A DNA stretch of 64,000 nucleotides from positions 4,092,001-4,156,000 of the forward strand of contig NZ_JACHMF010000001.1 in NCBI RefSeq assembly GCF_014204895.1. Direction: 5' to 3'. The notes beneath the pieces were generated by a model that worked only from the letters and a program-made list of their open reading frames with translations, had not been told where the DNA came from and ran no database searches. Positions 29,679-55,756 of the stretch are shown here, piece after piece (the stretch's first letter is position 1; the number at the start of each line of letters is the position of its first letter). The stretch is from Paractinoplanes abujensis (GTDB lineage: Bacteria; Actinomycetota; Actinomycetes; Mycobacteriales; Micromonosporaceae). The position numbers and the translations under genes are program-made.

Positions 29679-30917
29679 TCAGCCGGTCAACGACAGTAGG
29701 TCGACAGCCTCGTGGTTCCAGCCGGGCGGTATCACGGCGAGAGCGTCGGCGTACGCTGCCGGGCCGAGGTAGCCAGGATGAGCGCCTTCGATGACGTGTG
29801 CCTGCTGTCCCCGCAGGTGCACCGGCACGAGGCGCGTCGCCTGCGGCGCCGCCCGTACTGTTCCCTGCAGGTCAGCAGACGGCAGAACCGATAGATCGCG
29901 CCCGTTGAGCCCGGTCAGCAACGGTTCTATGATCGTGACCGCGGCGACGACCGCGGCGAACGGATTGCCGGGCACGCCGACGAGCCAGTGCCGGCCCCGC
30001 TGGGCGAGAAGCTGCGGGTGGCCGGGCCGGCAGGCGACCCCGTCAACGTGGGTGAGCGCGCCTACCGCGGTGACAGTGTCGTGAAGCCCGTCAGCTGGCC
30101 CCACCGATGAGGACCCGCACACTATCGTGATGTCGTAGCGGTCGAGGGCATCGTCGACCGCGGCGGTCAGCGCCTCAGCCGGCCGGTCGTCGACCCTGAC
30201 GCCGTCGACCGTGACGTTCCAGTTCTTCAGCAGCGCGCTGAGGACCGGACTGATCGCGTCGCGAACCTTGCCGTGGGACGGCACGCCACTGTCGACGATC
30301 TCGTCACCGGTGATCAATATCCGAGCGGTCGACTGGCGGCGAACGGTGACGATGTCAGCTCCGACGCTCGCGGCCAAGCCCAGAGCCGCGGGCGTGAGCG
30401 GGTGCCCGGCAGGCAGAACGCATTGCCCGGTGGTTACATATTGACCACGTCGACGAACATGGTCGCGGCCGCTTGTAGAAGCGTCGACAATGTCGCCGCC
30501 CCTGACCGCTGCTTCGTACTCGACGACGCGGTCGGTGCCTTCGGGCACCGCAGCGCCGGTGGCAATCTCCATCGCTTCGCCGGAACCAAGCCGCCGAGGA
30601 GCGCACTCGCCGGCAAGGACCCGACCGATGACCTTCCAGGGGCCAACGCCGCGCACCGCGTAACCATCCATGGCGGCGTTGTCGAATCCGGGCAGCATGA
30701 CCAGCGCATGTACTGCCTCAGCGAGGGTTCGTCCCGCGCCATGGTGCACAGACAGTTGCTCGGTGCCGAGCGGTTCGGCGCGTCCGAGCCGATGGGCACG
30801 GGCACGGGCCTGGTGCCATGACAGCGCCGCCCCCGTGTGGCGCAGACAGGCCGACGGCTCGGCAGGAGTCATGGCGGCGGGCAGGTCGAGTCGCGGTGCC
30901 CGGGTGCCGGCGGTCAT
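29679..30917 (-). CDS. moeA: Molybdopterin molybdenumtransferase MoeA
   Basis: 412 residues. MoeA inserts molybdate into adenylated molybdopterin, giving Moco for nitrate reductase. Recognised by MLPGFDNAAMDGYAVRG, IATGAAVPEGTDRVVEYE, ARILITGDEIVDSG, SSVGPADG and LVGVPGNPFAAVV. Start ATG 30917 overlaps the cupin stop (ATGA). Placement at the end of the narGHJI transcript suggests a dedicated MoeA made along with the enzyme. An N-terminal extension of about 30 residues precedes the MoeA core. Confidence 0.95.
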   Translation of the reverse strand: MTAGTRAPRLDLPAAMTPAEPSACLRHTGAALSWHQARARAHRLGRAEPLGTEQLSVHHGAGRTLAEAVHALVMLPGFDNAAMDGYAVRGVGPWKVIGRVLAGECAPRRLGSGEAMEIATGAAVPEGTDRVVEYEAAVRGGDIVDASTSGRDHVRRRGQYVTTGQCVLPAGHPLTPAALGLAASVGADIVTVRRQSTARILITGDEIVDSGVPSHGKVRDAISPVLSALLKNWNVTVDGVRVDDRPAEALTAAVDDALDRYDITIVCGSSSVGPADGLHDTVTAVGALTHVDGVACRPGHPQLLAQRGRHWLVGVPGNPFAAVVAAVTIIEPLLTGLNGRDLSVLPSADLQGTVRAAPQATRLVPVHLRGQQAHVIEGAHPGYLGPAAYADALAVIPPGWNHEAVDLLSLTG

Positions 30918-31310: not shown

Positions 31311-32033
31311 TCATGGCACGCGGTCCCAGCCCCGGCGCGGCGCCCGGCTGCCGAGCCGGGCGTCGCGGCTGCGATAGACGATGTAGGGGCGGGTGAGATA
31401 GCCCAGCGGGGCAGAGAAGACGTGCACCAGCCGGCTGAACGGCCAGAACGCGAACAGCACGAAGGCCGCCAAGGCGTGCAGCCGGAAGCCGATGGGCGCG
31501 GCCTCGATCAGGCCGGTGTCCGGCTGCAGGTAGAAGATCGATCGGAACCACGGTGAGACGGTCAGCCGGTAGTCGTGCGGATGGCCGGTCAGGTTGCCGA
31601 GAACGGTCGTGCCGAGCCCGAGCAGAATGGTGCCGATCAGGAGCACATACATGATCTTGTCGTTGATCGTGGTCGCGGAGAAGACCGGTCCGACGGTGCG
31701 ACGCCGGTAGATCAGGATGGCAGCGCCCCCGAGCGTGGCAATACCGGCAATGGTGCCGAGCCCGACCGCGACCGCGTGGTAGGCGTCCTCGCTGATCCCG
31801 GCGGCCTCGGTCCACGACTCCGGAATGAGCAGCCCGCCGATGTGCCCGACGGCGACCAGCAGGATGCCGAAGTGGAACAGCGGGCTGCCGATGCGCAGCA
31901 GCCGGCGCTCGTACAGTTGCGACGAGCGGGTGGTCCAGCCGAACTTGTCGTAGCGGTATCGCCAGATGTGGCCGCCGATGAAGATCGCCAGGCACAGGTA
32001 CGGTACGACGACGAACAGCAACGTGCCGGTCAT
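31311..32033 (-). CDS. narI: Respiratory nitrate reductase gamma subunit NarI
   Basis: 240-residue membrane cytochrome b that takes electrons from menaquinol. Five helices, with haem-ligand histidines in IGGHIWRYRYDKFGW, LFHFGILLVAVGHIGG, and the later FRLHALAAF and RLVHVFSAPLGYL. Start ATG 32033 overlaps narJ stop by ATGA. Complete by comparison with the family (about 225-245 residues). Confidence 0.97.
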   Translation of the reverse strand: MTGTLLFVVVPYLCLAIFIGGHIWRYRYDKFGWTTRSSQLYERRLLRIGSPLFHFGILLVAVGHIGGLLIPESWTEAAGISEDAYHAVAVGLGTIAGIATLGGAAILIYRRRTVGPVFSATTINDKIMYVLLIGTILLGLGTTVLGNLTGHPHDYRLTVSPWFRSIFYLQPDTGLIEAAPIGFRLHALAAFVLFAFWPFSRLVHVFSAPLGYLTRPYIVYRSRDARLGSRAPRRGWDRVP

Positions 32034-32653
32034 CGCGGAGCTCCTTCCGGGTGCGGCAGCGCGTACGGCGTCAGACCGACCTGCTCGACAGGCGGTCCTT
32101 GAGCGGCGAGGCGGGCCACGGCGGTACGTTGGTCGCCGATCAGGGGCGGCAGGGTTGCGGAGATCGAGTCGAGGACCTGCGACCAGGGCGAGGTGGCGTC
32201 GTGCAGCGCCAAGCGCAGCAGTTCCAGACCGGCGCGGTGCGCGAGGAGCAGGTCGACGCCCGCGCTGGGGTCGATGGCCGCGTACTCGAGGACCACGGCG
32301 AGGTGGTCCGGTAGTTCCTCGTCGGTCAGTTGCAGACCCGCCGCGGCATACGCCTGTTTGAGTTCGAGCAGGGCCATGCCGCGGTTACGAGTGTCGCCGT
32401 GCGCGTAGTAGGTGAGATACAGGCAGCAGCGTTTGCGGTGGTCGAAGGTGGCGACGTAGTCGGCAGCCAGAGTGCCCGGCGGGGTGGCGGTCAGGTGGTC
32501 GAGGAACCGTATCAGCGGGTCGCTGAGCGTTGCGGGCAGGCCGGCGGCGCCCTGCCGCAGCAGGCCGGCCCGCTCGTACAGGCTTTCGTCCGGGTATCCG
32601 ATCAGCAGTGACTGGATCTGCCAGGCCCGGCTCAGCATCGCTTGATCGGTCAT
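32030..32653 (-). CDS. narJ: Nitrate reductase molybdenum cofactor assembly chaperone NarJ
   Basis: 207-residue cytoplasmic chaperone that binds apo-NarG and is not part of the final enzyme. TorD/NarJ fold with the motifs YVATFDHRKRCCLYLTYYAHGD and RGMALLELKQAY, highly conserved in actinobacterial NarJ. Overlaps both narH and narI by four bases, showing tight coupling. Confidence 0.97.
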   Translation of the reverse strand: MTDQAMLSRAWQIQSLLIGYPDESLYERAGLLRQGAAGLPATLSDPLIRFLDHLTATPPGTLAADYVATFDHRKRCCLYLTYYAHGDTRNRGMALLELKQAYAAAGLQLTDEELPDHLAVVLEYAAIDPSAGVDLLLAHRAGLELLRLALHDATSPWSQVLDSISATLPPLIGDQRTAVARLAAQGPPVEQVGLTPYALPHPEGAPR

Positions 32654-34347
32654 GGCTTCGGCTCCACCTCGCCGTCCGGGTCGCCGCCGGCATCATCGGT
32701 GCGCCGGGGCGGGAACAGACCTTCGGGACGACCTTTGCCGTCCCAGTTGAGCAGGTTCACCCGGGCGGATTTGTCGGCCGGGTCGGTCAAGGCGCCGCTG
32801 GTCTGGCGTTCACGCAGCATGTGGAAGTTCTCCACGGCGATCGGGGTGGGTGCGCCAGACATCTCACCGAAGGGGCCGGAGCCGCCCATGCCAGGGCCGC
32901 CGTCGTAGTCGAGGCTGCACTCCGTGGCCAGTTCCTCGAGGCTGTGGGCCTGCTCGGCGTGCGCGGGCGGGATGACGTACCGCTCGTCGTACTTGGCCAG
33001 GGCGAGCAGCCGGTACATGTCGTAGATCTGCTCGCCGCTCATGCCCACCGCGGCCGGGATCGTCTCGTCGGTGTCGCGGCCCAGGTTGATGTCGCGCATG
33101 TACGAGCGCATCGCGGCGAGCTTGCGCAGCACCGCGTCCACCGGCCCCGGGTCGCCCGCGGTGAACAACTGGGCGAGATAGTCGACCGGGATGCGCAACG
33201 CCTCGATCGCGGCGAACAGGTTGCCGCGGTCCTCGGCGTCGTAGCCGGTGTCGCGGACTACATCGACGACCGGGGACAGTGGCGGGATGTACCAGACCAT
33301 CGGCATGGTGCGGTACTCCGGGTGCAGCGGTAACGCCACTTTGTACTTGTTGATCAGGGCGTACACCGGGGATCGTTGAGCCGCCTCGATCCAGTCGCGG
33401 GCGATGCCGGCCTTTTCGGCGGCGGCGATCACCGCCGGGTCGTTCGGGTCCAGGAACACCCGTCGTTGCGCCTCGTACAGGTCGTGGTCGTCGGCGACGG
33501 AGGCCGCCTCGAGCACCCGGTCGGCGTCGTAGAGCATCAGGCCGATGTAGCGCAGCCGGCCCACGCACGTCTCGGAGCACACGGTCGGAATGCCGACTTC
33601 GATGCGCGGGAAGCAGAACGTGCACTTCTCGGCCTTGCCGGTGCGGTGGTTGAAGTACACCTTCTTGTACGGGCAACCCGACACGCACATCCGCCAGCCC
33701 CGGCATCGGTCCTGGTCGACCAGCACGATGCCGTCCTCTTCGCGCTTGTAGATCGCTCCGGACGGACACGACGCGGCGCAGGAGGGGTTGAGGCAGTGTT
33801 CGCAGATCCGCGGCAGGTAGAACATGAACGTCTGCTCGAACTCGAACTTCACCTTGTCGGCGATGCCCTTGAGCAGCACGTCCTTGTCGCCGTGGTCGGG
33901 TGATCCACCCAGGTTGTCGTCCCAGTTGGCCGACCAGCTGATCTTCATGTCCTCGCCGGTGAGCAGAGACTTCGGCCGGGCGACTGGAGTGTGTTCCTGC
34001 AGCGGGGCGTTGGTGAGCGTCTCGTAGTCGTACGTCCAGGGTTCGTAGTAGTCCTGGATGCTCGGCAGCTTCGGGTTGGAGAAGATGCTGAACAGCTTCT
34101 TGATCCGGCCGCCACCCTTGAGGGTGAGCCGGCCGCGCCGGTTGAGCGTCCAGCCGCCTTTCCAGGTCTCCTGGTCCTCGTAGCGGCGTGGGTAGCCCTG
34201 CCCGGGCCGGGTCTCGACGTTGTTGAACCAGACATACTCGACGCCGGAGCGGTTGGTCCAGGCCTGCTTGCAGGTGACCGAGCAGGTGTGGCAGCCGATG
34301 CACTTGTCGAGGTTCATCACCATCGCCATCTGGGCCATGACGCGCAT
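32650..34347 (-). CDS. narH: Respiratory nitrate reductase beta subunit NarH
   Basis: 565 residues carrying one [3Fe-4S] and three [4Fe-4S] clusters that wire NarI to NarG. Cluster motifs are CIGCHTCSVTC, CEHCLNPSCAASCP, CRGWRMCVSGCP (Trp marks the 3Fe-4S site) and CTFCFPR, each typical of NarH. Start ATG 34347 shares one base with the narG stop (TGATG); a second ATG three codons on is possible. Length is normal. Confidence 0.97.
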   Translation of the reverse strand: MRVMAQMAMVMNLDKCIGCHTCSVTCKQAWTNRSGVEYVWFNNVETRPGQGYPRRYEDQETWKGGWTLNRRGRLTLKGGGRIKKLFSIFSNPKLPSIQDYYEPWTYDYETLTNAPLQEHTPVARPKSLLTGEDMKISWSANWDDNLGGSPDHGDKDVLLKGIADKVKFEFEQTFMFYLPRICEHCLNPSCAASCPSGAIYKREEDGIVLVDQDRCRGWRMCVSGCPYKKVYFNHRTGKAEKCTFCFPRIEVGIPTVCSETCVGRLRYIGLMLYDADRVLEAASVADDHDLYEAQRRVFLDPNDPAVIAAAEKAGIARDWIEAAQRSPVYALINKYKVALPLHPEYRTMPMVWYIPPLSPVVDVVRDTGYDAEDRGNLFAAIEALRIPVDYLAQLFTAGDPGPVDAVLRKLAAMRSYMRDINLGRDTDETIPAAVGMSGEQIYDMYRLLALAKYDERYVIPPAHAEQAHSLEELATECSLDYDGGPGMGGSGPFGEMSGAPTPIAVENFHMLRERQTSGALTDPADKSARVNLLNWDGKGRPEGLFPPRRTDDAGGDPDGEVEPKP

Positions 34348-37300
34348 CAGTACTCGACCTCCTGGGAGCGACGGCGGATGACAGTGACCTCGTCGCGTTG
34401 ATTGCCGGTCGGGCCGAGATAGTTGAAGGCGAAGGACAGCTGTGCGTACCCGCCGATCAGGTGGCTCGGCTTGATCAGCAGCCGGGTCAGCGAGTTGTGG
34501 ATACCGCCGCGCCGCCCGTTGGTCTCGGTGCGGGGCACGTCGATCAGCCGGTCCTGGGCGTGGTGCATGTAGACCGTGCCCTCCGGCATGCGGTGCGAGA
34601 CGACGGCGCGGGCCACGACCACGCCGTTGCGGTTGACCGCCTCGACCCAGTCGTTGTCGTGCACGCCGATCTTCGCGGCGTCCTCCTTCGATATCCAGAT
34701 CAGCTGCCCGCCGCGCGAGAGGGAGAGCATGAAAAGGTTGTCCTGGTACTCCGAATGGATCGACCACTTGTTGTGCGGCGTCAGATACCGCACGGTGATC
34801 CCCAGCTCGCCCTTCTCCCCCACCTGGGGCTCGCCGAACAGGGCGTTCATGTTCAGCGGCGGCCGATAGGTCGGCAGCCACTCCCCCAGCTCAGCCATCC
34901 AGTCGTGGTCGAGGTAGAAGCTCTGCCGCCCGGTCAGCGTGTGCCACGGCTTGAGCCGTTCCACATTGATGACGAACGGTGAGTAGCGCCGGCCCCCGGA
35001 CTCTGACCCGGACCACTCCGGACTGGTGATCACCGGGACCGGCCGGGACTGTGTGTCGGCGAAGGTGATCTGCTTGCCCTCGTGCTCGGCTGCCAGATCC
35101 GCCAACTCCACCCCGGTGCGTTTCTCGACCTGGTGGAAGCCCTGGGTGGCCAGGCGCCCGTTGGTGGTGCCGGACAGCGCCAGGATCGCCTCGCACGCCT
35201 GGACATCCCGGGCGATCGACGGCCGCCCGTTCGGGGCCACGCCGTTCTTGTGCCGCAGGTAGTCGAGCTCCGGGCCCACCTCGAACGTCACGCCCTTGGT
35301 GGTCGCGCCGAGGGTGTCCAGCAGCGGGCCGAGCGAGGCCATCTTGTCAGCGATCGCGGTGTAGTCCCGCTCGACGGTGACCAGCTTGGGCATGGTCTTT
35401 CCGGGCACCGGATCGCAGTCGCCGGCTTTCCAGTCGACGACCCGTCCGTGCGGATTGGCCATCTCGTCCGGCGTGTCGTGCAGCAGCGGAGCGGCCACCA
35501 CGTCCGTACGCGTGCCCAGATGGTCCTTCGCCAGAGCACTGAACGTCCGGGCGATCGTCATGAACGCGTCCCAGTCGGTGCGGGTCTGCCAGGGCGGGGC
35601 GATCGCCGGGTTGAACGAGTGCACGAACGGATGCATGTCGGTGGTGTTCAGATCATGCTTCTCGTACCAGGTGGCGGCCGGTAGCACGATGTCGGAATAG
35701 ATCGTGGTCGAGGTCATCCGGAAGTCGAGCGTCAGCAACAGGTCCAGCTTGCCGGTCGGCGCCTGCTCGTGCCACGTCACGTCGTTCGGACGGGCCTGCG
35801 GCGGCGCCTCGGTGGCACGCACACCGTGGTCGGTGCCGAGCAGGTGCCGCAGGAAGTACTCGTTGCCCTTGGCGCTGGAGCCGAGCAGGTTGGCCCGCCA
35901 GATCGTCAGTACCCGCGGGAAGTTCTCCGGCGCGTCCGGATCCTCGCAGGCGAACCGCAGATCACCGGACTTGAGCTGGTCGACGATGTGGTCGGCGACC
36001 GGCTTCCCGGCGGCCTCGGCGTCGCCGGTCAGCTCCAAGGGGTTGCGGTTGAAGTGCGGAACCGACGGCATCCAGCCCATCCGGGCTGACGCGGCGATCA
36101 GGTCCGCGGTGCTGCGCCCGGCGAACGTGCCGCCGTCCGGGCTCGCATTGAGCGCGGCGGCCGAGAACGGGTCGTAGCGGTACTGGTCGGTGTGCAGGTA
36201 CCAGTACGCGGTCTGGATCATCTGCCGGCCCGGCCGCACCCAGTCCGACGCCGTGCCCAGCACGCTGTACCCGGTGATGGGGCGGACCTTCTCCTGCCCG
36301 ACGTAGTGCGCCCAGCCGCCGCCGTTGACCCCCTGGCAGCCGGTCAACGTGGTCAGTGTCAGGAACGCCCGGTAGATGGTGTCGGAGTGGAACCAGTGGT
36401 TGGTCCCGGCCCCCATGATGATCATCGACCGGCCGCGGGTGTCGGCGGCGTTACGGGCGAACTCGCGGGCGATCCGCGCGGCGGCCGGCCCGGGCACACC
36501 GGTGATCGTCTCTTGCCAGGCCGGGGTGTACGCCTCGGCAGCGTCGTCGTAACCGGTCGGCCAGGTGCCGGGCAGCCCGTCGCGGGCCACCCCGTACTGC
36601 GCGAGAAGCAGGTCGAAGACGGTGGTGACCACATGTTCGCCGATCCGGCGCACCGGCACGCCGCGGCGCATCGGCGCCGCAGTTCCGTTCCCGGTGTCGA
36701 ACCGGGGCAGCACAACCGTCACCGCGGGATCCGGACCGCCTTCGGCGGACAACAAGGGGTGTACGTCGCCGAGGTCCAGGTTCCACTTTCCGGCGCCGGC
36801 GTCGCCGTACCGGTGTCCGAGCGAGCCGTTCGGGACCACCGGCATGCCGTCGCTGTCGAGCAGTACGGTCTTGAACGCGGCATTCTCCGTGTCGGCGAGC
36901 GCTCCGGGTAACTGGGCCGCGGTGAGCATCTTGCCCGGCCGGTAGGAGCCGTCGCCCGCATCGTCGAGGGTGACCAGGAATGGCAGGTCGGTGTACTTCG
37001 ACACGTACTCGGCGAAGTAGGGTTCCGGCCGGTCGGCGAAGAATTCCTTGAGCACGACGTGGCCCATGGCCATGGCCAGTGCGCCGTCGGTGCCCGGCGC
37101 CGGGGCGAGCCACTCGTCGGCGAACTTGACGTTGTCGGCGTAGTCCGGCGCGACCGCGATGACCTTCTGGCCGCGGTAGCGTGCCTCGGCCATCCAGTGC
37201 GCGTCCGGGGTGCGGGTGACCGGCAGGTTGGAGCCCCACATGATCAGGTAGCCGGCGTCCCACCAGTCCCCCGACTCGGGCACGTCGGTCTGGTCGCCGA

Positions 37301-38057
37301 ACACCTGCGGCGAGGCCACCGGCAGGTCGGCGTACCAGTCGTAGAACGACAGCATGGCCCCGCCGACGAGGTTGTAGAAGCGGGCGCCGGCCGCGTGCGA
37401 CACCATCGACATGGCCGGGATCGGCGAGAACCCGGCCAGCCGGTCCGGCCCCCACTTCTCGATCGTGTGCACGTGCGCGGCGGCGATCATCTCGACCGCC
37501 TCGTCCCAGCTCGCGCGGACCAGGCCGCCCTTGCCGCGCACCGACTTGTACGCGCGGGCCTTGTCCGGGTCGCCGGTGATCTCCGCCCAGGCCGCCACCG
37601 GATCGCCGAGACGCCTGCGAGCCTCACGGAACATTTCCAGGAGAACCCCGCGGACGTACGGGTATCGCACGCGCGTCGGTGAGTACGTGTACCAGGAGAA
37701 CGCGGCGCCGCGGGGGCAACCGCGTGGCTCGTACTCCGGGCGGTCCGGGCCGACGCTGGGATAGTCGGTCTGCTGGGCCTCCCAGGTGATGATGCCGTCC
37801 TTGACGTACACCTTCCAGGAGCATGAGCCGGTGCAGTTCACCCCGTGCGTGGACCGCACCACCTTGTCATGCGACCACCGGTCCCGGTAGAAGGCGTCCG
37901 CCTGCCGGCCTCCGATCTGGTACAGCGTGCGCCGGTCCGGCGAGACCTGTGCCTTCGTGAAGAACCGACGCGTCCCGACCAGGGCCTCGATGAGTGGATC
38001 GTCGAGACCGACCTGCCCGCGTTCGTCGGCGGACCCTCGTGATGTGCTGCTGACCAC
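34347..38057 (-). CDS. narG: Respiratory nitrate reductase alpha subunit NarG
   Basis: 1236-residue catalytic Mo-bis-MGD subunit reducing nitrate to nitrite on the cytoplasmic face. N-terminal FS0 cluster has the His/Cys motif HGVNCTGSCSWKVYVKDG; the Mo-ligand Asp region is YADLPVASPQVFGDQTDVPE; GSNLPVTRTPDAHW follows. Length is typical. GTG 38057 has GGGAGG seven bases upstream. First gene of narGHJI-cupin-moeA; a DosR-like box is 110 bp upstream, predicting oxygen-limited expression. Confidence 0.98.
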   Translation of the reverse strand: MVSSTSRGSADERGQVGLDDPLIEALVGTRRFFTKAQVSPDRRTLYQIGGRQADAFYRDRWSHDKVVRSTHGVNCTGSCSWKVYVKDGIITWEAQQTDYPSVGPDRPEYEPRGCPRGAAFSWYTYSPTRVRYPYVRGVLLEMFREARRRLGDPVAAWAEITGDPDKARAYKSVRGKGGLVRASWDEAVEMIAAAHVHTIEKWGPDRLAGFSPIPAMSMVSHAAGARFYNLVGGAMLSFYDWYADLPVASPQVFGDQTDVPESGDWWDAGYLIMWGSNLPVTRTPDAHWMAEARYRGQKVIAVAPDYADNVKFADEWLAPAPGTDGALAMAMGHVVLKEFFADRPEPYFAEYVSKYTDLPFLVTLDDAGDGSYRPGKMLTAAQLPGALADTENAAFKTVLLDSDGMPVVPNGSLGHRYGDAGAGKWNLDLGDVHPLLSAEGGPDPAVTVVLPRFDTGNGTAAPMRRGVPVRRIGEHVVTTVFDLLLAQYGVARDGLPGTWPTGYDDAAEAYTPAWQETITGVPGPAAARIAREFARNAADTRGRSMIIMGAGTNHWFHSDTIYRAFLTLTTLTGCQGVNGGGWAHYVGQEKVRPITGYSVLGTASDWVRPGRQMIQTAYWYLHTDQYRYDPFSAAALNASPDGGTFAGRSTADLIAASARMGWMPSVPHFNRNPLELTGDAEAAGKPVADHIVDQLKSGDLRFACEDPDAPENFPRVLTIWRANLLGSSAKGNEYFLRHLLGTDHGVRATEAPPQARPNDVTWHEQAPTGKLDLLLTLDFRMTSTTIYSDIVLPAATWYEKHDLNTTDMHPFVHSFNPAIAPPWQTRTDWDAFMTIARTFSALAKDHLGTRTDVVAAPLLHDTPDEMANPHGRVVDWKAGDCDPVPGKTMPKLVTVERDYTAIADKMASLGPLLDTLGATTKGVTFEVGPELDYLRHKNGVAPNGRPSIARDVQACEAILALSGTTNGRLATQGFHQVEKRTGVELADLAAEHEGKQITFADTQSRPVPVITSPEWSGSESGGRRYSPFVINVERLKPWHTLTGRQSFYLDHDWMAELGEWLPTYRPPLNMNALFGEPQVGEKGELGITVRYLTPHNKWSIHSEYQDNLFMLSLSRGGQLIWISKEDAAKIGVHDNDWVEAVNRNGVVVARAVVSHRMPEGTVYMHHAQDRLIDVPRTETNGRRGGIHNSLTRLLIKPSHLIGGYAQLSFAFNYLGPTGNQRDEVTVIRRRSQEVEY

Positions 38058-38689: not shown

Positions 38690-39115
38690 CTACTCGGCGC
38701 GCATGGCTTGCGCCGTAACGAGGAACTCCTCCCCTGCGAACATTTTGTAGGCGGCGTCGGTGGATAGGCCGTACTGCTCGGCGTAGGCCCCGTAGACGAA
38801 CTTCTGCACGTTGCCGGACAGGTGGATGCGGTCGCCGGCGGCCACATCTCTGCTGGGTTCGCAGAGCACCAGCAGCGACTCGTCACCGAAGTCGCGGGTG
38901 TCGAGGACGAACGACTGCTCGGTGATCACGCGGGTCACGATGCCGGTGATCGTGACGGTCCGGCCGATGAAATAGGTGTCACCGAAAAAGTTGCTGTTGG
39001 CCGGTGCGGTCGTGCTGCCCTGCGTGGGCGAGTCTTGGCCGCATCCGCTCACGATCAGCAAGCACAGTGTTGCGATCAGCGCCATCATTGTGCTGCGTGC
39101 TCGATGGCCCGCCAT
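38690..39115 (-). CDS. Putative lipoprotein with OB-like domain
   Basis: 141 residues. Signal peptide with lipobox (LIATLCLLIVSGC), Ser/Thr/Gln-rich spacer, then a beta-rich domain (TVTITGIVTRVITEQSFVL, GDRIHLSGNVQKFV) reminiscent of an OB fold. Probably anchored to the outer face of the membrane. ATG 39115. Function unknown; alone between nar and the AI-2E-type transporter. Confidence 0.75.
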   Translation of the reverse strand: MAGHRARSTMMALIATLCLLIVSGCGQDSPTQGSTTAPANSNFFGDTYFIGRTVTITGIVTRVITEQSFVLDTRDFGDESLLVLCEPSRDVAAGDRIHLSGNVQKFVYGAYAEQYGLSTDAAYKMFAGEEFLVTAQAMRAE

Positions 39116-39164: not shown

Positions 39165-40238
39165 TCAGCCGGTCGCCGGTTCCTGGGGTGCGGGCTCAGC
39201 GCGTTCGTTACGTGTGTGGCGGTGCGCGACGGTGATGCCCTGATAGGCGACGGCGGTCAGGGGCACGGCAACGAAGGCGCCGGCGACGCCTGCGGCCAAG
39301 GTGCCGGCGGTGACCGCGATGAGGATGACGACCGGGTGCAGATGGATCTGATGCCTCATGATCAGCGGCTGCAGCAGATTGCCCTCGACTTGTTGCACGA
39401 CGATGACCGCGGCCAGTGTGAGCAACGCTATGCCTGGTCCGCGGGCCGCGAGGGCGACCAGGACGGCGAAGGCGCCGGTCACGGTAGCGCCCAGGATCGG
39501 CACGAAGGCGCCGAAGAAGGTGATCAAGGCGAGCGGGATGGGCAGCGGCACACCGAGCAGCACCAGGGCCAGACCGATACCGGTGGCGTCGATGAGAGCG
39601 ATGACCGCGGTGCCGCGGGCGTAGCTGCTCAGCGTCGTCCAGGCGGCTGCGCCGGCCTCGGCGACGGTGTCCCGGCGGCTACCGGTGTGGGTGACGGTCC
39701 ATCGCCACATGCCCGGACCGTCCTTGAGGACAAAGAACAGCAGGACGAGCACGAGCAGCAGTGCGGCGAGGACCTCGAGGGTGAGCCGTGCGCTTGCGAC
39801 GGGGCTGGGCAGCAGCTGCCGCAGGCGGATGAGCGCCTCGTTGGTGACGGTGTCGACCTGCCGTTCGCTCAGCAGCGCCCCGGGTCCGATGATCAGGTCC
39901 CGGAGTCGTTGCAGGCCTCGGGTCAGCTGGGCGGTGAGGTCGTCGAGCTGGGCGGCGCCGCGTTGCCAGGCCAGCAGTACGGGCACCGTCAGAGCCGCAA
40001 TGGGCACAAACACGGTGATGAGGGCGGCCAGGGCGCCCGGCAGGTGCAGGCGGCGCTGCCAGCGGTACAGCGGATGCAGCAGGGCTGCGAGGAACGCGGT
40101 GGCGGCCAGCGCGAGCGCCAGGGGTGCCAGCCGCACAGCGAGCCGGCCGGCCAAGTACAGGCCGGTCAGAACGATGATGAAGCTGCCGGCCCACACAACT
40201 GCGGTGCGGACCGGTCGAGGTAGCACGGGGTGTGACAC
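39165..40238 (-). CDS. AI-2E family transporter (YdiK/PerM type)
   Basis: 357 residues, about eight helices with the family's large central soluble segment (residues 90-150) and the C-terminal motif GAFVPILGATVTG followed by VEGNLLQPLIMRHQIHLHP. Family members are named for quorum-signal export but their true substrates are mostly unknown. GTG 40238 lies immediately after the HtrA stop, so both may be co-transcribed. Confidence 0.9.
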   Translation of the reverse strand: MSHPVLPRPVRTAVVWAGSFIIVLTGLYLAGRLAVRLAPLALALAATAFLAALLHPLYRWQRRLHLPGALAALITVFVPIAALTVPVLLAWQRGAAQLDDLTAQLTRGLQRLRDLIIGPGALLSERQVDTVTNEALIRLRQLLPSPVASARLTLEVLAALLLVLVLLFFVLKDGPGMWRWTVTHTGSRRDTVAEAGAAAWTTLSSYARGTAVIALIDATGIGLALVLLGVPLPIPLALITFFGAFVPILGATVTGAFAVLVALAARGPGIALLTLAAVIVVQQVEGNLLQPLIMRHQIHLHPVVILIAVTAGTLAAGVAGAFVAVPLTAVAYQGITVAHRHTRNERAEPAPQEPATG

Positions 40239-40241
40239 GGT

Positions 40242-41261
40242 CTATCGTTCCGCCGCGCCGACGGTGACCTTGACGCTCTGCTGCTTGCCGCCGCGCAACA
40301 GGCCTATGTCGACGGTGTCGCCGGGTTCGACGCCACGCAGCGCGCCGAGGAACGCCTCGACGCTGGTGACCTGTTCGCCGGCGAACGTGGTGATGACATC
40401 GCCGGCGCGGAGGCCGGCCTTGGCGGCGGGATCACCCGTGACCACGTCGCGGACCAGGACGCCGCGGTCGGTTCCGGTTCCGAGGGCCTGGGCGATCTGC
40501 GGGGTCAGGCGGCCGACCGCGACCCCGAGGTAGGGGTGGGTGACCTTCCCGTCGTCGAGCAGGTCGTCGGCGACGTCGAGGGCCGTCGCGGCCGGGATGG
40601 CGAATCCGATTGAGACCGCGCCTGTTGCCGGGGGCAGGTAGGCGTCGTTGATGCCGACCACGCGGCCGGACGTGTCGACCAGGGCGCCGCCGGAGTTTCC
40701 GGGTGAGATAGCCGCGTCGGTCTGCAGAAGGTCGACCAGAGGCCGGCCCTGACTCGCGGAGCCGGGAATTTCCCGGCCGACGCCGGAGACGATCCCGGCG
40801 GTCACGCTGTTACGAAATCCGAGTGGGCTGCCCATGGCCAGGACCGTCTCCCCCGGCAGGGGCAGCTCGGTACGCAACGGCACCGGCGGCAGGTCGGTGC
40901 GGGCAGCCCGCAGGACTGCGAGGTCAGTGACCGCGTCGGTGCCCTCGACGGTGGCGTCGACGCGTGATCCGTCGGCCAGGGCGAGGGTGACGGTGCGGGC
41001 GTCGCCGACGACGTGCTGGTTGGTCAGGACCAGTCCACCGTCGCGGAACACGACTCCGGAGCCGAGACCCTCGCCGACGAGCACCGTGACCACTGATGGT
41101 TCCACGGCGGCGACGATCTGCGGCAGGCCGGCGGCCGCCACGGCGGGCGGAGCAGCCGAGCTGGACGGCGGCGAAGCGGCCGGATTGTCATCAGTGCATC
41201 CCGCCAGCGGCAGGATGAGTACGAGGGATCCGAGGGCCAGGTTGGTGCGGATGCGAGCCAT
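40242..41261 (-). CDS. HtrA/DegP-like trypsin-type serine protease with PDZ domain (lipoprotein)
   Basis: 339 residues if started at ATG 41261: lipoprotein signal (NLALGSLVLILPLAGC), Ala/Ser/Pro spacer, and a trypsin-like domain with His (VLTNQHVV), Asp (VTDLAVLRA) and Ser (SPGNSGGALVD), then a C-terminal PDZ domain (YLGVAVGRL, GLRAGDVITTFAGEQV). Extracellular quality-control or stress protease. The start is supported by the lipobox, although GGTAGG upstream is weak. The frame remains open upstream into the sigma/STAS coding sequence with no stop, so part of the protein might be made as a fusion. Confidence 0.88.
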   Translation of the reverse strand: MARIRTNLALGSLVLILPLAGCTDDNPAASPPSSSAAPPAVAAAGLPQIVAAVEPSVVTVLVGEGLGSGVVFRDGGLVLTNQHVVGDARTVTLALADGSRVDATVEGTDAVTDLAVLRAARTDLPPVPLRTELPLPGETVLAMGSPLGFRNSVTAGIVSGVGREIPGSASQGRPLVDLLQTDAAISPGNSGGALVDTSGRVVGINDAYLPPATGAVSIGFAIPAATALDVADDLLDDGKVTHPYLGVAVGRLTPQIAQALGTGTDRGVLVRDVVTGDPAAKAGLRAGDVITTFAGEQVTSVEAFLGALRGVEPGDTVDIGLLRGGKQQSVKVTVGAAER

Positions 41262-42770
41262 GGCGTGGGGCCTACCCGAGCGTGGTGGGCGCTGACGCAG
41301 GAGAACCGGTCGTGATGGTGGGCATCGGGCGACGAAGCCCTGGCCCGGCGTCGCTGGTGACGACCGTCCGATGCCGTGCCGAGAGTTCAGGTGTGTCGAC
41401 GGTTGCACATCAGCGGCCGCGGCCGGGCGTGGCTCTGCGGTGTCGTGGGCGTGGCGACGACGTACGTGGGGGCCGGCCGTTGCGATGCAGGCCGGCCGAT
41501 GCGCTGCTCGCCTGGCTACGGGTTGGTCCGGATCATGTCGAGTGCGGCCGGTCGGCGTGTCGGCGTTTGGTTGGGCTGCTCGGGCGTGCGGTGCGGCCGT
41601 CGTCTCCGGCCGGGGGTGGCAGGGGATGATGTGGGTGACGGCCAGCCGGTGTAACAGCTGGTGCACTCGCGGGCCGAGGTTGACGACAACGAATCTGACT
41701 CCGGTGTGCCCGGCCGCCCGGTACGCGTCCAGCAGCGTGCGGGCGAGAGCACGTGGCGCCTGCCGCAGGTGTCGCAGGTCGACCACGATGGTTCGTGGCC
41801 GGCGGGTGAAGGCCAGGTCGACCAGAGTGTCGCGCAGCGTGGCGGCGCTCGTATCGTCCGGCACTGCCGACGGTGCCACGATGACGCATCGACCGGCGAC
41901 CTCACTGATCCGGCATGTCGACGAGGACGCTTCGGCCGCCGGCGGGCGGTGGTCGTGGCTCATGTGGGTGCGTAGCGCGGCCAGGCCGGCCGATAAGAGC
42001 CTGGACACGGTCATCTGGGAGATGCCGAGATCCGCTGCGATCTGCAGTTGGGTGCGACCGGCGTAGAAGTAGCGAGTGATGACCTCGCGGGTTCGCGGCG
42101 GGAGCCGGGTGATGTGAGCGCGTACCGCCATCCGGTCGCAGACGGCCTCGAGCGCGGTGTCCATGTCGCCGATGATGTCGTGGCGCTCGGTGTCGCCGTC
42201 CGGGCCGCAGGAACGATTGAGCGAGTCGGCGCGGTACGCCGCGGCACCGGCCTCGGCGGCGCGAACCTGATCGGGAGTCAGGTCCAGGACCGCGGCGATA
42301 TCGGCAAGCGATGGTGCGCGTTGCAGCCGTTGCGTCAGATCGGCGCGGGTGCGGGTCACTTCCAGCGAGGTCTCCTTCAGGGTGCGTGGCACGTGCACGC
42401 TCCACACCCGGTCCCGGAAATGGCGTTTGAGCTCGCCGAAGATTGTGGGGGTGGCGTAGCCGGTGAAGGGGATGCCCCTGGCGGGGTTGTAGCCGTCGAC
42501 GGCCTTCACCAAACCGAGCGCAGCGACCTGCAGCAGGTCCTCAAGGGCCTCGCCCCGATCGCGGTAGCTGCGGGCGTAGTGGTAGGCGAGATCGAGGTTG
42601 ATGCGCACCGCTTCATCGCGCAGCGCACGGCGCTGTTCATGGGAGCATTGCGGGTCACGCATGCGGCGAATGAGGCTGACGGTCTCGGCGTCGCGCCGCT
42701 CGGCTGCGGCGTGGGCGCCGGGACGCGACGGGCGCGACACTGGGCGGGCACGGTGGACAGCAGTCAGCAT
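41262..42770 (-). CDS. SigB/SigF-type sigma factor fused to a STAS-like domain (frame continues into HtrA)
   Basis: From ATG 42770 (GGGAG site) residues 1-270 are a sigma-70 factor of the SigB/F/G stress group. Region 2 has EDLLQVAALGLVKAVDGYNP and FTGYATPTIFGELKRHFRD, region 3 spans about 135-190, and region 4 is LPPRTREVITRYFYAGRTQ then ISQMTVSRLLS. Residues about 283-392 look like a STAS domain (TSAATLRDTLVDLAF, TIVVDLRHL, VVVNLGPRVHQLL) but lack the phospho-Ser position. Residues 393-503 are Arg/Pro-rich. No stop exists before the HtrA stop at 40242; the coordinates here end at the HtrA ATG. A lost stop or an indel near 41550 is the alternative to a real 842-residue fusion. Confidence 0.8.
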
Positions 42771-43078
42771 GGTGACTCCCGAAAGAAGCTGAGGACGCGG
42801 CCTGACAAGGCGTACGTCTCGTACGGCGAATGGAGGTGGCGCGGCGCACGAACAGACGCTCACGCGAGGCGGCGCTGAGCACGACCGACGAAGGCCGTCA
42901 ATCAGCAACCGACGCTCCGCCGTCGACGAGCCGATTACGGCTCACGGTGCCGTGACTTGACACCCGCGGTAGGGAGCTTCGCCCGTAGTTCTCACCCAAC
43001 CGGGTGTCGGTAAACCGTCAACATCGGTCTGTCACCGAACTGAGACATCATCGCCATTTCGACGCGTGGTAGACGCTC
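42771..43078. other. Intergenic region upstream of the sigma factor gene
   Basis: No gene. Contains an 8-base inverted repeat GACACCCG (42959-42966) and CGGGTGTC (43001-43008), 34 bases apart, that could belong to the sigma gene promoter region or to termination of the DUF1622 pair. Confidence 0.5.
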
Positions 43079-48284: not shown

Positions 48285-49424
48285 TTACACGAGCCGTAAC
48301 GAGTTCACCTCGAACGGCTCACCGGTGGTGAGCGTATCGCGGTAGCCGGCGAACAGCGCCTTCAGCGGTGCGTGCGGGTACAGCTCGAGCAGCCGGCGAC
48401 CGGTCAGTTCGGCCGCCGTCCGGCCGGTCGAGTCGACCGCGCCGGGGCTGCACCGTTGCAGGCACCAGTCGAGGATGTCACCGCTGTCGTCGCGCACCGG
48501 GCACAGCAACGCGACCGACCCGGGCAGAGCGTGCAGGACCGTGTCGATCCAGTGCGCCGCCGCAACGGCATGCCGGCCGTCGGCTGCGCGCACCAATGCG
48601 GACAGCCGCCGGCCGGCGGCGTCGGCCATCGTTTGCAGGTAGCTCCGGGTGGCGGCGTCCACGTCAAGAGCCTGCGGCCACATCACCACAGCGACGCCCA
48701 ACACGTGATCGGCCAGGCGCATCGGCAGGCAGGCACGCATCTGCCCATCACCGATGAACTCGTAGCCCAGTGCGGCCGCCTCAGCCCGGCTGATCCACCA
48801 GGGGCGGCCTTCAGCGGCCGTGCGCAGGAAGGCGACCTTCAATGATCCCGGGACCCGGTGCCAGGCGCTGACGACCGTGGCCGGCAAGCCATGTGCTCCG
48901 ACCAAGCGGACTGCCCCGTCGGGTTCGACAATCGTCAGCATGACGGCGTGCGCGCCGAGCTGCTGCACCCCGTGTGTCCACATGGTCTCGGCGAGTTCGT
49001 TGGCGTCCGCGGCGGCGGCCATGGCCGCACAGCTCAAGTGGTACCGGGCGGCCAGCTCGGGCGGCAACGACACAACTGTCGAGGCGTTGAGCTCGACGGC
49101 ATCGTCGCGCGGCACGCCGAGGTCGATCTCGGTGTGCGGCGCCGACGGCCGGGTCGCCGGCACCGTGACGGGGGCGGCGATGCCGATCAGCCCCGCGGCG
49201 ACGTCGATGACCTTCATGTTGGTGTGCTGCGACATGGCAGCCAGGTGTTCGAACGCCTCCTCGGGCGAGCAGGCCAAGCGCCCGGCCAGCAGCCCTTTGG
49301 CCTGCTCGATGATGGCTTGCGAGCGCTGCCTGGCGCGCAACCCGTCAAGTTCGGCCCGTAGCCTGCTCACCGTCTCGGCCAGGTGCGCGTCACCGCGATG
49401 GCTACTCCCCCGCGACGACGCCAT
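48285..49424 (-). CDS. ANTAR-GAF-PAS signalling protein (5' part of a split gene)
   Basis: 379 residues. N-terminal ANTAR-like RNA-binding domain (RSQAIIEQAKGLLAGRLACS, EEAFEHLAAMSQHTNMK, about residues 35-85), GAF domain about 120-280 (TMWTHGVQQLGAHAVMLTIV, CLPMRLADHVLGVAVVMWP) and the start of a PAS domain (SVALLCPVRDDSGDI, TAAELTGRRLLELYP). ANTAR proteins act as antiterminators. ATG 49424 with GGGGGG. The reading frame ends at TAA 48285, right where the PAS domain should continue into 47817-48266. Confidence 0.82.
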   Translation of the reverse strand: MASSRGSSHRGDAHLAETVSRLRAELDGLRARQRSQAIIEQAKGLLAGRLACSPEEAFEHLAAMSQHTNMKVIDVAAGLIGIAAPVTVPATRPSAPHTEIDLGVPRDDAVELNASTVVSLPPELAARYHLSCAAMAAAADANELAETMWTHGVQQLGAHAVMLTIVEPDGAVRLVGAHGLPATVVSAWHRVPGSLKVAFLRTAAEGRPWWISRAEAAALGYEFIGDGQMRACLPMRLADHVLGVAVVMWPQALDVDAATRSYLQTMADAAGRRLSALVRAADGRHAVAAAHWIDTVLHALPGSVALLCPVRDDSGDILDWCLQRCSPGAVDSTGRTAAELTGRRLLELYPHAPLKALFAGYRDTLTTGEPFEVNSLRLV

Positions 49425-49579
49425 CGATGCACCCCCCAATTTCCCCTGCTGCCATATCACCTCGATCAGCCGCCGGTCACGTTAACTGCCGGAACTGGAC
49501 AACCGCTGACACGACGAGCCTCGTCTGCCAGCCGGCTCTCAGCCGCAGGCATGGCCGCAGTGGTCGTTGTCCGGGCAGG

Positions 49580-49657
49580 TCACCGATGCCCCAGCGCGAT
49601 GAAGTAGGTCAGTGCGACCGCGATGAAAGCCAGGCAGCCGATGAACATCACGCGCAT
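49580..49657 (-). CDS. 25-residue membrane microprotein overlapping the STAS gene
   Basis: MRVMFIGCLAFIAVALTYFI plus ALGHR: one transmembrane helix with basic ends. Its ATG (49657) lies inside the last codons of the STAS gene (stop at 49648), a 10-base overlap, implying coupled translation. Too short for most ORF callers. Many actinobacteria have similar single-span small proteins of unknown function. Confidence 0.55.
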   Translation of the reverse strand: MRVMFIGCLAFIAVALTYFIALGHR

Positions 49658-50082
49658 GACACGCCCTGCATGGCCGGTACGGCGGTGACCGGCTGCTGCG
49701 GGGCGATCGTCCAGGACCGCTGACCCCGTCCCTCATCAGTGAGCGGCCGGTTGGTCGCAGGATGAGCGTCGCTGAGGGCGGACAGCGTCCCGGTGATGGT
49801 GAGGGTCCGGAGAACGATGCCAGTCGGTTGGTCGATAAAGAGCTGCACCCCGTGGGCGCGGGCGTATCGCTGCCCGTCGAGCAGCGCCTGCACGCCGGCG
49901 GCGTCGATGAACCAGACCGCTGACAAGTCGATGATCATTCGCGGTGGTGCGCCATGCCGGAGGGCGGTGGCAATGACAGCTTCGACAACGTCGCTGGTGG
50001 ACATGTCGATCTCACCGGTGATGCGCAGCCGGATACTGCCGGCCTTGGGCGCCTCTTTGACGACGGACATCGGTGCTGTCAT
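49648..50082 (-). CDS. STAS-domain protein (anti-sigma factor antagonist-like), non-phosphorylatable
   Basis: 144 residues: IRLRITGEIDMSTSDVVEAV, RMIIDLSAVWFIDAAGVQAL. STAS core about 15-105. The usual phospho-Ser in the FIDSSG motif is Ala (FIDAAG), so switching by an RsbW-like kinase is unlikely. The C-terminal 35 residues are extra. ATG 50082 with CGGAGG. The nearest sigma factor is the one at 42.7 kb; partnership is speculative. Confidence 0.87.
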   Translation of the reverse strand: MTAPMSVVKEAPKAGSIRLRITGEIDMSTSDVVEAVIATALRHGAPPRMIIDLSAVWFIDAAGVQALLDGQRYARAHGVQLFIDQPTGIVLRTLTITGTLSALSDAHPATNRPLTDEGRGQRSWTIAPQQPVTAVPAMQGVSCA

Positions 50083-50550
50083 CGCAAACCTCCGGAGAGT
50101 GGTCCAACGGGCACCTGAAGCGCTGATAGCCGGTGTGGTGGTGTGGTGCTCGTCAGGTAGGGAACGGGAAGGGACATTGGTGCCCGCCAGCTGCCAGGCT
50201 TTGTTGACCACCGAGCACGGCTGAACGCCTATGGGGTGCTGTCGAGATGACGCCGGTGCACCGGTTCGTACTCCTCGGTGAGCATGCCGGCGTCGACGCG
50301 CAGACCTGGCCGCACCCTGCATATCGGTGACACCAGCCAGGCGGGCCGCCGAGGCACGGCAGAAGACGGCGCTCCGGCGATCATCGCTCCGACGCGCCAG
50401 CGCACTGCCACGAGAGGTAACCCTCGCCGGAGAAGCACACGTCTTCATGGCCATCAAAATACCGCTCGATGCGTCCAACAAACATTGCACATAGCAAGAT
50501 TTTTCGAAGGCGGAAGTTTCCGGCGCACCGCGCCGAGGTAGAGCAAGAAC
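50083..50550. other. Intergenic region with a GH15 gene remnant and a palindrome
   Basis: Contains the GH15 remnant described separately and, near 50485, the perfect palindrome TTGC-ACATA-GCAA in an AT-rich patch, plausible as the promoter/operator of the lipoprotein gene at 50551. No intact gene. Confidence 0.6.
50179..50303 (-). pseudogene. Degenerate 3'-end remnant of a GH15 glycoside hydrolase gene
   Basis: On the minus strand this 125-base stretch reads RVDAGMLTEEYEPVHRRHLD, then STP and a degraded VNKAWQL. It matches the end of the GH15 protein at 15.4 kb (RNDVGMLAEEYDPATGRQLG, NTP, VNAAHRL). DNA similarity to 15381-15507 is visible directly, for instance in GGTCGTACTCCTCGGCGAGC against TTCGTACTCCTCGGTGAGC. 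It is too short and decayed to be functional. Confidence 0.75.
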
Positions 50551-54958: not shown

Positions 54959-55756
54959 TCACGGGGAGCCGGGCGCCGTCCGGACCGTGACGACGATGAG
55001 CTGCCCCGTCCGCAGCTTGGTGCCGGCGCGAGGGATGGTGGCGCGAACGAGATCGTCGATGCCGGGGCGGGCCTCCTTCAGACCGGCGCGGGCATTCCGC
55101 TCGGCGGCCGGCTCGTCGTCGTCGACGCCGTACTCGCTGTCTTCCGACGCCCAATCCGGGGCGTACCCGGGCGCGTACCGGAAAAGCACCAGCTCCTCGA
55201 CGCCGGCCAGCACGCCGGGCGGTCCGGTCTCGTCGTACGGCGTCTCCGTGAGCTGGTCGGCCGCGGTCCCGGCGCGGATGGCCGGCATCGTGGGATGCGC
55301 CTTGAACCAGGCCGCCTCGGTCTTCCGCAGCACCGACAGGACGACGGGAGTCGCCGGGTCGTACGGCTGCCCGGCCGCCGGCGTCGTGGCGACAACGGCC
55401 CAGTTGCTGTCCATCATCGGCTGACGGTCCAGGGACGACAAGTCGTCGACGCTGGTCTCCATGTCCGCTGTGCGCAGGGCCTCCTCGGCGACATCGAGCC
55501 CCTCTCCGACGACGTCGGCCACCGTAGGCCCGGTGACCGTGGTCGTCTCCGGGGCAGCGCCGGCGCCCGCCGGACTGAAGACTGCCACGGCCGCCGCCAC
55601 CACGACGGCCACGAACACCGCGAACACGCCGTCGGCGGCGCGCCGCAGCAGCGGCCGGGCGCTCCGGGCCGAGCGAGGTCTTTCCCCGGTTCCGACCGCG
55701 CCCGGCCCCACACAGGCGGGGCCTACTTCGGGCGGCCGCGAATCGACGCCCCACAC
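54959..55756 (-). CDS. PASTA-like membrane protein, unknown function
   Basis: About 265 residues. Basic N-terminus, one transmembrane helix (VFAVFVAVVVAAAVAVFSPA), then extracellular regions with PASTA-like features (TVADVVGEGLDVAEEALRTA, VVATTPAAGQPYDPATPVVL; and a second GTKLRTGQLIVVTV). PASTA domains bind peptidoglycan or muropeptides. The start is uncertain: GTG 55756 is preferred since longer frames run into the divergent gene. Divergent from the membrane protein at 55852. Confidence 0.7.
   Translation of the reverse strand: MWGVDSRPPEVGPACVGPGAVGTGERPRSARSARPLLRRAADGVFAVFVAVVVAAAVAVFSPAGAGAAPETTTVTGPTVADVVGEGLDVAEEALRTADMETSVDDLSSLDRQPMMDSNWAVVATTPAAGQPYDPATPVVLSVLRKTEAAWFKAHPTMPAIRAGTAADQLTETPYDETGPPGVLAGVEELVLFRYAPGYAPDWASEDSEYGVDDDEPAAERNARAGLKEARPGIDDLVRATIPRAGTKLRTGQLIVVTVRTAPGSP

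Follow-up and report, generated by a model that had tools for sequence, protein, structure and literature searches.

In the window, by which the whole 64,000-nucleotide stretch of Paractinoplanes abujensis DNA that was analysed is meant, one open reading frame covers both a sigma factor with a STAS domain and an HtrA protease, and this is probably the result of two genes sharing one frame: a sigma-STAS gene with an open tail and an independent htrA, the fusion being a by-product. A tempting fusion becomes a probable by-product, and what takes its place is less expected, a clade of sigma-STAS proteins without a fixed C-terminal end. Sigma-STAS proteins themselves have been known since 2023; what is new is a separate clade of them that lacks a stop behind the STAS domain. 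Neither this clade nor the run-on of its members into different genes was found in the open-access literature, among the matches listed.

Domain structure of the open frame

The frame, on the minus strand, opens with ATG 42770, closes with the stop codon at 40242, has no stop in between and would encode 842 residues, as the first-pass annotation had stated, and the domains named there (sigma regions 2 to 4, a STAS domain and a trypsin-PDZ protease) were recovered by Pfam. The sigma matches (Sigma70_r2 at residues 55-123, r3 at 133-203 and r4 at 222-267) lie above their cut-offs, as do STAS at residues 291-387 (33.9 bits vs 22.6) and STAS_2 (29.5 bits vs 29.2); the protease is matched by Trypsin_2 (570-707) and PDZ_2 (746-837). 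The SigB/SigF-type sigma part (residues 1-269, 41965-42770, minus strand) was delimited by the r2, r3 and r4 matches and by model helices of high confidence, and TIGR02980, the NCBIfam model of SigB/SigF/SigG sigma factors, gave 229.2 bits at a cut-off of 234.35. GGGAG at 42776-42780, ahead of ATG 42770, is the likely ribosome binding site as read from the sequence. In the model the STAS domain (residues 291-387, 41610-41900, minus strand) shows strands alternating with helices, mostly at a pLDDT of 79-94. STAS antagonists usually carry DSSG as their phospho-serine motif; inspection of alignment A1 by eye showed QAPRA in its place in our protein, and serines at this site in one relative, P0126. 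The AlphaFold2 model built from the same alignment is of high confidence over most of the sigma and STAS parts and almost wholly below 50 in residues 395-540, while its HtrA part is poor because A1 held no HtrA rows. The best 50 Foldseek matches listed include sigma factors, Staphylococcus aureus SigB ranking second. Farther upstream than the sigma gene, at a distance of about 6-7 kb and also on the minus strand, lie genes for another STAS protein (49648-50490) and an ANTAR-GAF protein (48285-49460).

The htrA gene and its surroundings

The protease is very probably translated from a start of its own, ATG 41261 (M504 of the long frame). The gene, htrA (40242-41261, minus strand), encodes a lipoprotein serine protease of 339 residues with one PDZ domain, as judged from Pfam and the alignment of relatives, and this ATG opens MARIRTNLALGSLVLILPLAGC, a typical lipoprotein signal. 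In HtrA numbering the lipobox cysteine is residue 22 and the triad is H83, D113 and S190, all conserved without exception in the 20 proteins aligned, which were hand-chosen relatives; these start at about our M504, with shorter N-termini in four (P0252, P0253, P0255 and P0266). HtrA relatives are stand-alone proteins of about 340 residues: 28 of the best 30 matches have 324-344 residues and the other two have 284 and 309. Among the best 120 of 7,895 matches to residues 504-842, the closest relative shows 81% identity over its full length, and a relative spanning both halves was absent from the best 120 of 6,647 matches to the 842-residue query. In two longer HtrA records (P0002 and P0003) the frame continues on the upstream side into sequence of another kind that encodes no sigma factor; for P0003 this part gives a weak match to a dehydrogenase. 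Run-on frames ahead of htrA are therefore not peculiar to sigma-STAS genes.

An AI-2E family transporter gene (39165-40238, minus strand; PF01594) starts 3 bases past the htrA stop and is likely to be on the same transcript. It is followed by a gene for a small putative lipoprotein with no Pfam match (38690-39115, minus strand); a similar one lies directly after htrA in A. auranticolor (L032:7561-8082). Behind this cluster there are nitrate reductase genes (31311-38057, minus strand), the large subunit being recognised by eye and the gamma subunit by Pfam, with a MoeA-type gene near them (29679-30917).

Gene order in relatives

At an E value of 1e-85 or better, htrA was found in 15 of 300 genomes, our own included, and all 14 others were compared over about 4-5 kb per side. 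The named relatives obtained by sequence search belong to Actinoplanes and other Micromonosporaceae, and a nearest-plasmid search gave no record that covers 80% of the query. A sigma-STAS gene lies directly upstream of htrA in one of the 14 (A. auranticolor, L127), 2.2 kb upstream in another (L128, a putative Jidongwangia) and downstream in three (L135, L137 and L138); in L136 a sigma match to residues 46-287 lies upstream, and in the other eight loci no sigma match was found around htrA. The sigma frame of A. auranticolor overlaps the htrA start by 244 bases out of phase, and the arrangement in the window resembles this overlap but is in phase. Among the 14 other genomes the single case of adjacency is thus out of phase, and the order of the genes near htrA differs from one to another. 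A conserved sigma-HtrA fusion was rejected in view of the stand-alone HtrA relatives, the lack of a joint match among the best 120 and the varying neighbours.

A clade of sigma-STAS proteins with open tails

Sigma-STAS matches at an E value of 1e-68 or better were found in 20 places in 15 genomes (354 searched), in open frames of 486-1221 codons. Past STAS no stop occurs in the frame of these 20 loci for 72-750 codons (median 187.5). All 20 of 20 thus reach at least 72 open codons, as against 20 of 40 cases in the other two forward frames. In a FastTree phylogeny of 77 sigma-STAS proteins with a midpoint root, the length of our own tail being set by hand, 19 long-tailed proteins fall into one clade of 20 with a support of 1.0, the exception within it being P0137, from a 1.6 kb contig; the remaining 57 have tail lengths of at most 21. 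This tree leaves out 45 of 122 sequences because their alignment over STAS comprised fewer than 70 residues; none of them is longer than 384 residues. All 14 hand-picked control sigma-STAS loci stop close behind STAS.

The tails of the clade could not be aligned; several of them may share a GR.RPPP motif close to their ends, which could be an alignment effect. In L164 (putative Couchioplanes) the sigma-STAS frame reads through, with no change of phase, to a short-chain dehydrogenase (PF00106, E 6e-37), and the long tails of L161 and L175 gave no Pfam match. Open yet unalike, and in phase with a protease gene in one species and with a dehydrogenase gene in another, the tails make this clade a natural example of the way in which fusions of domains can start. 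A single contig of A. auranticolor carries two sigma-STAS genes of the open-tailed clade (L032 and L033), with about 8 kb between them.

Over the first 72 tail codons of the 20 loci (1,440 codons in each frame) there are no stops in frame vs 9 and 14 in the other frames, and position-specific base use gives a chi-square of 99, compared with 7.5 (sd 4.4, maximum 25 of 200) in stop-free shuffles. A model trained on the other 19 loci scored the true frame best in 20 of 20, and in 11 of them, the window included, this frame also exceeded stop-free shuffles with p no higher than 0.05; training on one half and testing on the other gave 9/10 and 10/10. Behind other genes, taken as a control, the corresponding frame was best in 26 of 96 cases and in 18 of the 42 equally long open ones. 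With the sigma-STAS core as training set, the true frame ranked first in 14 of 20 loci, the window not among them. Sixteen loci are long enough for codons 73-118 to be scored, and there the true frame ranked first in 7; since the coding signal reaches to about codon 72 and is lost beyond it, proteins of this clade seem to have a translated tail of about 70 residues, and the rest of the open run seems due to chance. Comparison of the loci shows the lack of a stop, and from the base pattern we infer that the tail is translated.

Another possible explanation, which appears unlikely, is that the tails as a whole are open by chance, GC-rich DNA giving long open runs after the loss of a stop. This would agree with the tails not being alignable and with the shuffle probability of 72 open codons at a single locus (0.35-0.81), but the probability of all 20 being open together is about 1e-5 by shuffles. 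In the same loci, the next in-frame stop lay at least 72 codons behind 42 of 96 coding-like genes, nine of which proved to be sigma-STAS frames themselves, and behind 40 of the remaining 87 (Mann-Whitney 4e-6); both p-values are too small because the cut of 72 codons was fixed once the minimum was known and because the loci are not independent but related. The right frame being best in all 20 loci, as compared with the controls, also argues against chance.

The linker between STAS and HtrA

In the window the linker comprises about residues 387-503 (117 codons), and the sigma frame stays open for 456 codons behind STAS, the other two frames closing 31 and 25 codons past it. The coding base pattern (GC3 far above GC2) is clear in sigma-STAS, fades at about residue 391 and is clear again at about residue 541, and no periodicity was seen over the whole 118-codon linker (p 0.46). 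The first 72 tail codons (residues 387-458, 41397-41612, minus strand) carry a weak in-frame coding signal (chi-square p 0.04; leave-one-out score p 0.015), whereas the remaining linker (residues 459-503, 41262-41396, minus strand) is open without such a signal (score -3.27, p 0.86). The caveat in the first-pass annotation, that the linker looks non-coding and HtrA has a lipoprotein start of its own, was well founded. As 49% of Markov shuffles of the first 100 codons of the linker remain open for 100, the open linker is not beyond chance at this single locus, and significance is reached only clade-wide. The linker DNA aligns weakly with that of A. auranticolor (score 22.5; mean 11.6 and maximum 23 in 200 shuffles). 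Besides the lack of periodicity, two points in the linker count against the two-gene explanation: under the core-trained model our tail scores best in another frame, and neither a stop nor an intrinsic terminator separates sigma-STAS and htrA on the minus strand, the one terminator site found between them being on the opposite strand.

A sequencing or assembly error, in which an indel in the linker hides the stop of the sigma factor, is improbable. The lack of a coding signal in the second half of the linker and the early closure of the other two frames would suit it, but the other 19 of 19 clade loci are open for at least 72 codons too. The same comparison disposes of the suggestion that the stop was lost by a local indel near 41550, and a local indel as the sole cause of the open frame was rejected. 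In addition, the identical 842-residue protein is present in the protein collection as two member sequences on two contigs, the longest of 1,408,246 bases; the genome searched here is a single contig of 9.33 Mb, and an error private to our assembly is therefore disfavoured, with the proviso that these records and our assembly may derive from the same strain or reads.

A proposed sigma-B-type promoter before htrA

CGGGTAG at 41272-41278 (minus strand), 10 bases ahead of the ATG, is proposed as a sigma-B/SsdA-type -10 element of htrA, and the element before htrA fits the published sigma-SsdA promoter, GnTT-n14-CGGGTA (PMC10733313). The two nearest relatives examined share CGGGTAG before htrA, GGGTA being at -16 in the window, -15 in L127 and -14 in L128. 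The complete GTTT-N14-CGGGTAG precedes htrA in L129, L130 and L131 (GGGTA at -65, -63 and -65), and L133 has this promoter in front of a more distal part of htrA, the 5' end of the gene seemingly being lost. The arrangement at L133:4880-5200 looks like the outcome of a deletion that took away this end together with the export signal. Altogether a sigma-B-type element is found before htrA in the window and in 5 of 14 relatives, plus the displaced copy in L133; no comparable element in place was seen in 8 of 14 (L132 and seven at no more than 57% identity), the htrA starts of L132 and L133 probably being misjudged in this comparison.

The -35 part is poor in the window, which counts against the two-gene explanation, and for that reason we can only infer the promoter there. 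GGGTAG also shows no enrichment in the window (16 found vs 17.6 expected), which likewise counts against that explanation, as does the lack of an element in place in 8 of the 14 relatives; GTTT-N14/17-GGGTA does not occur in the window, and its single GNTT-N14-CGGGTA site is at 55187, far from htrA. Across the loci of 31 relatives and the window, which were chosen for htrA or sigma-STAS, GNTT-N14-CGGGTA has 18 sites vs 0.4 in shuffles, 16 of them distinct, as two were counted twice via overlapping loci. Such sites in the relatives also precede other genes, some of which resemble, by eye, those of an AI-2E transporter and a protein kinase. Our own genome contains GNTT-N14-CGGGTAG 15 times and the reversed pattern 3 times. 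As a control, 141 coding-like frames of these loci were screened for CGGGTA at 5-22 bases before some early start; 8 have it, among them a single htrA gene, that of L127. No clear ribosome site was seen before ATG 41261, and with the -10 element so near this ATG the htrA mRNA may be leaderless. These data suggest that sigma-B-type promoters drive htrA in Micromonosporaceae, which is directly testable.

Probable expression of the two genes and of the fusion

According to the two-gene explanation, the sigma-STAS frame would run about 70 or more residues past STAS to the next stop, and htrA would use its own ATG 41261 and its own sigma-B-type promoter inside the linker. Ribosomes on the sigma mRNA would continue in phase into htrA, giving the 842-residue by-product; as there is no in-frame stop from STAS to the end of htrA, some of this fusion is probably produced, provided that the transcript extends through both genes. 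As far as these sequence comparisons go, nothing found points to its conservation, function or selection.

It is very improbable that the fusion is a working protein, in which the internal lipoprotein signal would sit in the membrane and the disordered tail would tether the sigma factor inside to an outward-facing HtrA, proteolysis setting the sigma factor free; the version in which extra HtrA also comes from the internal sigma-B-type promoter is just as doubtful. If true, a single gene would supply both a stress sensor on a tether and the output of that sensor, and the stop-free frame, the exact protein on contigs of another assembly and the basic residues before the intact internal signal, which might suit inside-out insertion, are in its favour. 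Against it are the lack of such a protein among the 120 best-listed relatives, the variation of partner, order and phase, the second half of the linker with no coding signal and the -10 element of htrA itself. The membrane-held sigma factor of the first-pass annotation is thus unsupported, given a stand-alone HtrA, an unconserved neighbour, a dehydrogenase in phase elsewhere and a -10 element of its own before htrA.

Comparison with known systems

HtrA shares with HtrA/DegS-type proteases a trypsin-like domain, one PDZ domain, an intact triad and an export signal, and differs from them in being a lipoprotein. The NCBIfam models DegP/Do, DegS and HtrA all match below their cut-offs, the Do family model TIGR02037 with 275.9 bits vs 416.2.

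The anti-sigma antagonists SpoIIAA and RsbV are separate STAS proteins whose phospho-acceptor serine lies where the second STAS helix begins. The STAS domain is common to them and to our protein, but ours is fused to a sigma factor and lacks the phospho-serine motif, for which reason the classical phosphorylation switch would not apply.

The closest parallel in architecture is sigma-SsdA of Actinoplanes missouriensis, a member of the same family of bacteria, which is described as a SigB/F/G-type sigma factor with a STAS domain, 379 residues long and ending with STAS (Tezuka et al. 2023, PMC10733313). A sigma-STAS fusion alone, regarded as unusual in the first-pass annotation, was therefore already known. 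Both proteins have a sigma domain and a C-terminal STAS domain, whereas SsdA ends at STAS as published and ours belongs to another clade and has an open tail. In A. missouriensis, ssdA adjoins sipA and, according to the same account, sigma-SsdA is inhibited by SipA via its own STAS domain (PMC10733313). Our sigma-STAS gene differs in having no SipA-like gene in the window, and a tblastn search of 41 sequences including the window with our own SipA-like protein matched only L002. At L002:1447-3386, elsewhere in our genome, a sigma-STAS gene (397 aa) faces a gene with STAS and HATPase domains (244 aa), which is the ssdA/sipA layout. By analogy with sigma-SsdA, the STAS domain encoded in the window would dock an RsbW-like anti-sigma factor.
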